The translations under genes were made by a program, and so were the position numbers. This document shows, in pieces, positions 2,834 to 4,468 of a DNA stretch of 64,000 nucleotides (within the stretch, counting starts at the first letter, position 1; every line of letters starts with the position of its first letter). The stretch is from Actinomycetospora cinnamomea (GTDB taxonomy: Bacteria; Actinomycetota; Actinomycetes; Mycobacteriales; Pseudonocardiaceae): NCBI RefSeq assembly GCF_003096675.1, contig NZ_QEKW01000004.1:362975-426974 (forward strand), read 5' to 3'. Under the pieces are notes generated by a model. That model ran no database searches and had not been told where the DNA came from. It saw only the letters and a program-made list of their open reading frames with translations.

Positions 2834-4468
2834 TCAGCGCCCGTCCTCGGACAACCCGCGCCGGAAGTTGACGAACGAGCGCGAGGGCGTCGGGCCCCGC
2901 TGGTCCTGATAGCGCGAGCCGTAGACGGGCGAACCGTAGGGGTGCTCGGCGGGCGACGACAGCCGGAACAGGCAGAGCTGGCCGACCTTCATCCCGGGCC
3001 ACAGCCGGATCGGCAGGTTCGCCACGTTCGAGAGCTCGAGCGTGACGTGACCCGAGAAACCGGGGTCGATGAATCCGGCGGTGGAATGGGTCAACAACCC
3101 GAGACGACCCAGGCTCGAGTTGTGGGTCGGGATGAAGGTACGGCCGACCAGGAACATGCCGTCCGCTGCCGCGACCTGGATACAGCGCACGGGACGCGAG
3201 CCGGTCGCCTGCACATCGGCGATGCCACGGTGCAGGTGACGGCGGCGGTCGGGGGTCTTGAGCCGCGCGACCTTCCGCTCGAGGCGGAACACCTCGAACC
3301 ACGGCGTGAACTTCACCTGGTGCGCGAGGCCGTGTTCGACGCCGCGGAAGTTGGCCCGCTTCTTGCGCTGTCGCGGGCGGAGGCCGAGGCTCGCGGCGAG
3401 CTCGGCGACACCGTTCGACAGGTCCTCGCGCATGTTGACGAACTCGCAGCGCCCAGCGACGTCGACGTACCCGTCCGAATCCATGAGGCCCTGGAGGAGT
3501 GCGAGGCGCTGGCCGATGCTGCCGCGGAGGTAGGCGACGGGGATGTGCTTGTTGCCGAGCACACCGAGTGCGCGCAACGCGCTCGAGAGCGATCCATCGG
3601 CGCTGTAGCGCCCGCCCGCGTCGCGGGTCCGGCCGACGCGACCCCGGCAGAGACCACCGACGCGGTACGCGTACCGACCGGAAGCCTTCCCAACGTCGTG
3701 TCCGGCGGCGCGGATCTCATCGAGCATCTGCTCATCTCCGGGCCCGCAGGTCACCTCCGCTGTGCTGCTGGTGCCGTCGCCCAACCAGACGCCCAGGACA
3801 TACGGGTCGATCGGGAGATCAGCTTCGGGACAGTGCACCGCGTTGGCCAGCTCGACGTGGTGGTTGACCTCGTCGTGCCAGCGCAAGCTAGCGGCGATCT
3901 CCTCCGTCGTGCTGACGGTAGCGGGATGCTGACGCTTCCGCGCAGGCTTCGTCGTCGTCCGCCACCTATGGGCGGCGTCGGCGGTGACGACCTCGCCGTC
4001 GGAGAACCGGACGTCGTAGCAGGGGCGGCCGAGCATCACCTCGGTCGTCGCGATGACCCGTACCGGTCGACCGTCGAGGCCGAAGACCTCGTCCCCGACG
4101 CGCACGTCACCCATCGTCGTCCACCCCGTCGGTGTCGGGACCGGGGTGTCGACAGCGAGGGCCTTGCCCTCGAGGCGACCGGCGATGTCGTCCGGCAGCG
4201 AGATGACCTCGTACGTCGAGCCGAGGACGAACTCGCCGGGGTGCAGGACGAACGCCTCGTCGGGGCCGGGTGGCTCGACCGGGCGTGTCAGCTCGTCCTG
4301 CTGCAGCGCGGGGTCGATGTGCGTGTACGCATGGTTGTTGAACGTGCGGAAGTGCCGGTCGAGACGCAGGTCGACGCTCGAGGGCTGCAGCAGCGTCGCG
4401 TCGAACGGGTCGAGCCCGACGCGTCCGGCCGCGATCTCGGCGCGGATGTCGCGGTCGGAGAGCAGCAC
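2834..4468 (-). CDS. dcd: dCTP deaminase (bifunctional DCD-DUT type) precursor with in-frame intein
   Basis: After splicing, the 196-residue host protein should convert dCTP to dUMP for thymidylate synthesis, as the mycobacterial enzyme does by combining dCTP deaminase and dUTPase activity. The N-extein is residues 1-102 (MLLSDRDI at the start, LQPSSVDLRL) and the C-extein residues 451-544 (SSLGRLGLLTHSTAGFIDPG, then GHVTLELSN with the likely catalytic Glu, and QRGPTPS at the end). The intein sits inside the nucleotide-binding GKSS motif, so the unspliced protein should be inactive. No frameshift or stop interrupts the 544-residue frame. The start is ATG 4468. The gene converges on the diguanylate cyclase and lies downstream of etfD on the same strand. 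Confidence 0.95.
   Translation of the reverse strand: MLLSDRDIRAEIAAGRVGLDPFDATLLQPSSVDLRLDRHFRTFNNHAYTHIDPALQQDELTRPVEPPGPDEAFVLHPGEFVLGSTYEVISLPDDIAGRLEGKALAVDTPVPTPTGWTTMGDVRVGDEVFGLDGRPVRVIATTEVMLGRPCYDVRFSDGEVVTADAAHRWRTTTKPARKRQHPATVSTTEEIAASLRWHDEVNHHVELANAVHCPEADLPIDPYVLGVWLGDGTSSTAEVTCGPGDEQMLDEIRAAGHDVGKASGRYAYRVGGLCRGRVGRTRDAGGRYSADGSLSSALRALGVLGNKHIPVAYLRGSIGQRLALLQGLMDSDGYVDVAGRCEFVNMREDLSNGVAELAASLGLRPRQRKKRANFRGVEHGLAHQVKFTPWFEVFRLERKVARLKTPDRRRHLHRGIADVQATGSRPVRCIQVAAADGMFLVGRTFIPTHNSSLGRLGLLTHSTAGFIDPGFSGHVTLELSNVANLPIRLWPGMKVGQLCLFRLSSPAEHPYGSPVYGSRYQDQRGPTPSRSFVNFRRGLSEDGR
3119..4162 (-). mobile_element. Class 3 intein with LAGLIDADG homing endonuclease, inside dcd
   Basis: The 348-residue insertion begins ALAVDTPVPTPTGWTTMGDV, with Ala rather than Cys or Ser at position 1, and ends IPTHN before Ser+1. 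It carries the class 3 signature: Trp67 (block B, TADAAHRW), Cys327 (block F, VRCIQV) and Thr346 (block G, PTHN), plus terminal Asn348. In this class the block F Cys, not residue 1, starts branched-ester formation. A homing endonuclease domain has both LAGLIDADG helices with acidic residues intact: LGVWLGDGT (Asp129) and LQGLMDSDG (Asp228). It therefore looks competent for both splicing and homing. Extein residues flanking it are GK and SSLG. Confidence 0.93.

Follow-up and report, generated by a model that had tools for sequence, protein, structure and literature searches.

The closest described counterparts of the element reported here are the class 3 inteins of mycobacterial DnaB helicases, MchDnaB1 (6rix) and DnaBi1 of Mycobacterium smegmatis (6bs8). 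Class 3 inteins possess a Trp-Cys-Thr (WCT) triplet, whose members occupy position 12 of block B, position 4 of block F and position 5 of block G (PMC5050341), together with a block B His, a penultimate His, a C-terminal Asn and a Ser, Thr or Cys at position +1 (PMC5222942). Insertion behind the Lys of a P-loop is a known favourite of inteins (PMC5050341, PMC10643990), as exemplified by the mycobacteriophage terminase inteins TerL1-a, which sits between Lys and Thr, and TerL1-b, which has been shown to splice and to cut DNA (PMC5050341). Here we analyzed a stretch of 64,000 nucleotides from Actinomycetospora cinnamomea (contig NZ_QEKW01000004.1, positions 362,975 to 426,974; referred to as the window), in which dcd, the gene for dCTP deaminase, is interrupted by a predicted class 3 intein with a LAGLIDADG homing endonuclease domain (Table 1). 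This insert shares with the mycobacterial DnaB inteins the WCT triplet, Ala1, Cys48, His65, the terminal Thr-His-Asn, Ser+1 and insertion behind Gly-Lys, and with the TerL1 inteins a P-loop-type seat, but its host is neither dnaB nor a phage P-loop ATPase, and DnaBi1 is described without an endonuclease (PMC6195587).

Inteins in dCTP deaminases are not new as such. The intein in the dCTP deaminase (gp069) of cyanophage vB_AphaS-CL131 splices in Escherichia coli (PMC6293099), and it interrupts the same conserved motif of the same enzyme family. However, it starts with Cys and ends KN/C (a slash marks an intein junction) and is therefore not of class 3, contains an HNH-type endonuclease, and is inserted behind STYAR, five residues further towards the C-terminus (as read from MG209611). 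The same report cites intein-bearing dCTP deaminases from two bacteria, a proteobacterium and a Chloroflexi member, which we can liken to our case by their bacterial dcd host gene only (PMC6293099). Likewise, the "dtd" allele of Halobacteria shares the host enzyme family, the sole point of comparison; the survey that lists it records six Halobacteria and no Bacteria (PMC4071816). In our literature searches we came across no description of a bacterial dcd gene with a class 3 intein, a prior mention being possible.

The dcd precursor is encoded by a single open reading frame for 544 amino acids, in which 348 residues are inserted in frame between LEGK and SSLGR. A preliminary description had placed this insert between GK and SSLG of dcd, and translation reproduces its bounds to the base. 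On both sides of the insert, the exteins match the bifunctional dCTP deaminase/dUTPase of Mycobacterium tuberculosis (2qxx; E 6.5e-87), and the TIGR02274 profile scores 185.8 bits against a cut-off of 92.8 in two stretches that flank it; the joined exteins would form a protein of 196 amino acids with a computed mass of 21.6 kDa. Since the guanine plus cytosine (G+C) content of the insert (70%; 0.87 at third codon positions) resembles that of the exteins (70% and 68%; 0.92) in a window with 76% overall, base composition does not mark the insert. The assembly, 97.17% complete, yielded one dcd locus. Our sequence comparisons confirm that the reported intein in dcd is real, far beyond chance, and we consider it very probable that the single dcd gene detected in this genome harbours a LAGLIDADG-containing class 3 intein that excises itself to yield an active dCTP deaminase.

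Table 1. Predicted features of the intein-bearing dcd gene (window positions).
Feature	Position	Strand	Basis or remark
dcd precursor gene	2834..4468	(-)	544 codons plus stop; GTG start
N-extein, residues 1-102, C-terminal end ...RLEGK	4163..4468	(-)	aligned with 2qxx residues 1-101
Insertion site, N-side, last 9 nt, GAG GGC AAG	4163..4171	(-)	DnaB Walker A-like codons
Class 3 intein, 348 amino acids, ALAVDTP...FIPTHN	3119..4162	(-)	precursor residues 103-450
Ala1, no nucleophile at intein position 1	4160..4162	(-)	translation; 120 of 120 listed proteins
Cys48, counterpart of redox partner Cys48 of M. smegmatis DnaBi1	4019..4021	(-)	alignment
His65, block B	3968..3970	(-)	alignment with MchDnaB1
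Trp67 of the WCT triplet, block B	3962..3964	(-)	alignment with MchDnaB1
LAGLIDADG homing endonuclease domain, intein residues 118-283	3314..3811	(-)	PI-SceI match; PF14528 and PF05204 above cut-off
Asp129, first LAGLIDADG Asp, = PI-SceI Asp218	3776..3778	(-)	alignment
Asp230, second LAGLIDADG Asp, = PI-SceI Asp326	3473..3475	(-)	alignment
Cys327 of the WCT triplet, block F, predicted initiating nucleophile	3182..3184	(-)	translation, alignment
Phe337, Cys plus 10, where DnaBi1 has zinc ligand Tyr128	3152..3154	(-)	alignment
Thr346-His347-Asn348, block G	3119..3127	(-)	translation, alignment; 120 of 120 listed proteins
C-extein, 94 amino acids, SSLGRLGLL..., precursor residues 451-544	2837..3118	(-)	+1 Ser aligned with M. 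tuberculosis enzyme residue 102
Insertion site, C-side, first 12 nt, TCG AGC CTG GGT	3107..3118	(-)	DnaB Walker A-like codons

A phmmer alignment pairs residues 1-70 and 317-348 of the intein with residues 1-70 and 114-145 of MchDnaB1 (whole-sequence E 1.3e-34), the second stretch being short and worth 13.6 bits by itself. His65 and Trp67 pair with the block B residues of MchDnaB1, Cys327 with Cys124, and Thr346 and Asn348 with the block G residues. Ala1, Trp67, Cys327, Thr346 and Asn348 are found where the preliminary description had put them, and the alignment, which that description had named as a possible refutation, does place the signature residues in blocks B, F and G. Position 1 has neither Cys nor Ser, the WCT triplet is made up of Trp67, Cys327 and Thr346, and the block B His65, the penultimate His347, the C-terminal Asn348 and Ser+1 are all present; structure comparison with 6rix indicates a HINT fold for the splicing domain (51% identity over 129 residues). 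By homology, the thiol of Cys327, aided by His65 and Thr346, would attack the Lys102-Ala1 bond, the N-extein would then be transferred to Ser+1, and cyclisation of Asn348 would leave the exteins joined as LEGK-SSLGR. The Ser-Ser-Leu-Gly-Arg motif of Dcd is, we assume, phosphate-binding; as the intein lies directly in front of it, the unspliced precursor is predicted to be inactive.

Between the two parts of the splicing domain, the intein aligns with the endonuclease part of PI-SceI, the yeast VMA intein (E 2.1e-08). Asp129 stands opposite Asp218 and Asp230 opposite Asp326, numbers counted by hand along the printed alignment, and we take this Asp pair to be catalytic. Both proteins consist of a splicing domain into which a LAGLIDADG endonuclease with two motifs and an Asp in each is inserted, PI-SceI being longer (454 residues); PI-SceI is a class 1 intein. 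PF14528 scores 30 bits against a cut-off of 22.5. The WCT signature and the MchDnaB1 and PI-SceI alignments support the reading as a class 3 intein whose endonuclease looks intact, including the two LAGLIDADG Asp residues claimed for it. As a separate observation, Cys239 of the endonuclease (window 3446-3448) is present in all 120 listed dcd inteins introduced below, in 5 of 66 DnaB inteins and in 34 of 83 other inteins.

In our protein search, 7997 candidates were scored and 7608 passed; the best 120 of them, which include the protein from the window, are without exception dcd precursors with an insert at the dcd junction, from sources such as Geodermatophilus, Blastococcus, Pseudonocardia and Jatrophihabitans. 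Their alignment columns hold Ala1, Cys48, Cys327, Thr346, His347 and Asn348 in 120 of 120 proteins, and His65 and Trp67 in 119. The junction RLEGK/SSLGRL recurs in all 118 proteins that parsed cleanly (P0005 and P0102, which start ALV/ALS, were left out), with Asp129 in 113 and Asp230 in 109 of these. Among genomes of the family, 12 of 390 match at E 1e-75, six of them in dcd; the other six matches cover query residues 100-455 only and are taken as inteins in other genes. At E 1e-100, matching genomes number 4 of 394 in the class, 14 of 397 in the order and 1 of 296 in the phylum, in draws that overlap and each count the genome of A. cinnamomea, with cut-offs that can miss divergent or shortened inteins. 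Residue counts across intein loci refer to the 151 of 160 loci that were complete enough.

A decayed intein with a dead or leaky splicing part, which would leave dcd broken and dUMP (deoxyuridine monophosphate) to be made via the separate dUTPase gene present in this genome, seems improbable to us. With that dUTPase gene at hand, loss of Dcd might be tolerated; a class 3 intein gene of Arthrobacter has been described as a pseudogene (PMC3196547); and in one of the 120 listed relatives, P0057, a stretch around residues 50-70 is scrambled as if by a local frameshift, with His65 and Trp67 gone. Against decay speak the frame, uninterrupted for 544 codons and with no splicing residue missing, and the ratio of nonsynonymous to synonymous substitutions (dN/dS) of the exteins between the A. 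cinnamomea genome (G000) and its intein-bearing congener G006, which at 0.086 indicates an enzyme under selection. Moreover, the splicing residues checked are intact in 21 of 21 distinct intein-bearing dcd loci (22 minus one duplicate, L034 being identical to L213; the incomplete L005 of G014 was left out). The corresponding dN/dS values are 0.14 for the N-terminal splicing part and 0.13 for the endonuclease, which in at least seven of the 21 loci (L195, L196, L207, L214, L218, L220 and L221) lacks a catalytic Asp or a large piece; L217, whose second LAGLIDADG motif falls outside the search pattern, was not judged. Since splicing residues are kept in each of these loci and endonucleases are not, the host gene seems to need splicing while the endonuclease seems dispensable, with the A. 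cinnamomea copy at an intact stage.

The preliminary description went further and suggested that a core pyrimidine enzyme is made only after splicing, which would couple dUMP supply to redox or zinc state through Cys327. With a single dcd locus found, Dcd from that gene should indeed need splicing, but the separate dUTPase gene means that dUMP supply need not depend on Dcd alone; a pause in splicing might hence lower, not end, this supply. In DnaBi1, oxidation links the catalytic Cys to Cys48 and halts splicing (PMC6195587). By analogy, oxidation of Cys327 and Cys48 could pause splicing of the dcd intein, and the redox half of the suggestion agrees with the invariance of Cys48 among the 120 listed dcd inteins, compared with 65 of 66 DnaB inteins and 58 of 83 others. 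Mutations of Cys48 also abolish DnaBi1 splicing (PMC6195587), so that conservation of this residue alone is no proof of regulation. The zinc half fares less well: the zinc ligands of DnaBi1 are C118, V119 and Y128 (PMC7360933), and the place of this Tyr, kept in 57 of 66 DnaB inteins, is taken by Phe in 115 of 118 dcd inteins, including Phe337 here, which weakens the case for zinc control.

dCTP deaminase is not known as a P-loop enzyme. Yet the codons around the dcd insertion site resemble those of a Walker A motif. The genome of A. cinnamomea contains a second class 3 intein of 402 amino acids in the Walker A motif of dnaB (GIGK/STLG; G000:C4:143856-145082; L002, L003), and the two sites share 15 of 21 nucleotides from -9 to +12. 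Scored against a matrix of 66 DnaB sites, the dcd site over these 21 nucleotides ranks first of the 125,816 positions that both strands of the window offer once the intein is removed. Among related class 3 inteins of the searched genomes, no seat is more frequent than the DnaB Walker A motif (67 of 80 genome loci, 66 of them with Ser+1), and 51 of 80 viral intein loci follow GK, with one residue of slack allowed and host genes judged by junction alone. A 17-letter site pattern, picked after the likeness had been seen and thus matching dcd by design, found nine matches in four genomes free of the dcd intein (four dcd, two dnaB and three ABC-transporter P-loop-like sites); its reverse found none in the same genomes. 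DnaB-likeness scores are higher in intein-bearing dcd sites than in the intein-free ones of the genus (median 15.2 vs 10.6; Mann-Whitney p 0.010), which, with related rows, is a hint only. A codon TCN at +1 occurs in 17 of 21 intein-bearing dcd loci, in 9 of 15 intein-free loci of the genus and in 26 of 42 intein-free viral loci, a preference that is not significant (Fisher p 0.26 and 0.16).

Since the P-loop is a favoured intein seat and Dcd is not known to have one, we propose capture by mimicry: the dcd site would first have been reached because its GK/SSLG codons imitate the GK/ST codons of the DnaB Walker A motif. Two points count against this proposal. With longer flanks (12+12, 15+15 and 24+24) the site stays first within dcd, but its rank in the window falls to 7, 9 and 62, and the likeness may reflect merely the Lys-1 and Ser+1 that both sites offer. 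We put forward only tentatively, as a possibility that may well prove wrong, that a P-loop-seeking class 3 endonuclease mistook GK/SSLG for GK/STLG and that dcd thereby gained a Cys48-Cys327 redox switch tying dUMP supply to the oxidative state.

That the dcd intein is a recent copy of the dnaB intein in the same genome, we regard as highly implausible. The position of that intein at a Walker A site and the 15 shared target nucleotides would suit such a copy, but the two inteins are merely 52% and 47% identical over two stretches, and 42 dcd inteins cluster together (FastTree support 0.998), while the dnaB intein of A. cinnamomea groups with other DnaB inteins. The dcd grouping is recovered with 0.95 for the splicing part and 0.997 for the endonuclease, by 40 of the 42 dcd inteins when the first 75 residues are taken alone, and with values of 72 and 93 in IQ-TREE. 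A mosaic origin, suggested by FastTree, which grouped the splicing part among DnaB inteins (0.972) and the endonuclease among phage-type ones, was dropped after IQ-TREE analysis of 59 of the 182 rows, in which neither part rejects a clade of dcd and DnaB inteins (approximately unbiased test, p 0.633 and 0.639).

Nor did a phage source emerge. The EGK/SSLGR junction was found in none of the 80 viral loci kept (93 relatives), four of which are unreadable across it in frame, and a motif scan detected no intein junction in the 80 of 487 viral loci nearest to the precursor family; 42 of these 80 possess an intact EGKSSLGR and no intein. Among named phage records, 2 of the 853 with a match cover at least 80% of the query, neither of them among the 40 listed. 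Many viral or prophage contigs (L236-L281) contain an intein-free dcd with the same target motif, and such contigs could ferry empty or filled alleles; the long match of L258 consists of an intein-free dcd and a stray partial 3' dcd-like piece (4312-4522) more than 1 kb downstream.

Within Actinomycetospora, three of 18 genomes carry the intein (G000 and G006 with the full insert, G014 up to a contig end). In the other 15, the extein halves adjoin at an empty site, which provides the intein-free alleles that the preliminary description had advised looking for. In a tree of the flanking iron-sulphur (Fe-S) protein gene, present in 16 of the 18 genomes, the three carriers do not group together, and for two of them the nearest relative lacks the intein: G006 pairs with G015 (0.985), and the lowest synonymous divergence (dS) compared for G014, 0.112, is to G011. 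The intein dS between G000 and G006 (0.648) exceeds that of all 23 window genes compared (median 0.420, maximum 0.577; dcd, the neighbouring GGDEF open reading frame and frames failing a dN/dS, third-position G+C, length or overlap filter were left out), a value that looser codon use could inflate. Separate arrivals of the intein in the genus are the reading that we favour. As a DNA element, the intein would persist by homing, its endonuclease cleaving intein-free dcd alleles at these same codons so that a copy of the intein could be inserted there.

That the intein is instead a passenger inherited in the genus and lost from most species, not a mobile element that arrived several times, appears unlikely to us, even if several data fit it. 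Intein distances correlate with those of the exteins (Mantel test, Spearman 0.469, a value reached in 0 of 2000 permutations; 21 inteins), the intein is more similar than the extein in just 2 of 6903 pairs, and frequent loss has been claimed for inteins of haloarchaeal MCM genes (PMC10643990). The dcd-extein tree again pairs G006 with G015 (0.865); its weak grouping of G000, G011 and G014 (0.42-0.69) is absent from the flanking-gene tree. The split of the carriers in the flanking-gene tree, the excess intein dS and the purifying selection on the endonuclease argue against simple inheritance. Of the "recent arrival or continuing homing" deduced earlier from the intact endonuclease, continuing homing is consistent with the patchy distribution, the intein-free nearest relatives and the endonuclease dN/dS, but the dcd allele is widespread and forms one clade, and no co-conversion signal exceeds controls. 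Co-conversion had been suspected from the divergent C-extein of G000 and was dropped, since intein-free pairs behave alike (C-extein/flank dS ratio 1.00-3.71 in 78 intein-free pairs and 1.73-2.88 in 14 G000 pairs).

Elsewhere in the window, a protein of 1152 amino acids with an AAA_10 domain, presumably VirB4-like, is encoded at 8935-12390 between the dcd/Fe-S protein region and dnaK-dnaJ-clpB. A gene for a flavohaemoglobin-like protein with globin and FAD/NAD reductase domains (20802-22265) adjoins dnaJ on the opposite strand.

The spread of inteins to new insertion points is poorly understood, and among Halobacteria a survey identified no more than one supported ectopic invasion (PMC4071816). 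The class 3 inteins of the dcd clade occupy P-loop-like codons in an enzyme not counted among the P-loop ATPases, and mimicry at the dcd site may account for the arrival of such inserts in new genes. The dcd gene of A. cinnamomea thereby presents a predicted class 3 intein, equipped with the cysteine pair of a published redox switch, in a core enzyme of nucleotide metabolism that ordinary bacterial chromosomes encode, not in a phage gene or a helicase.
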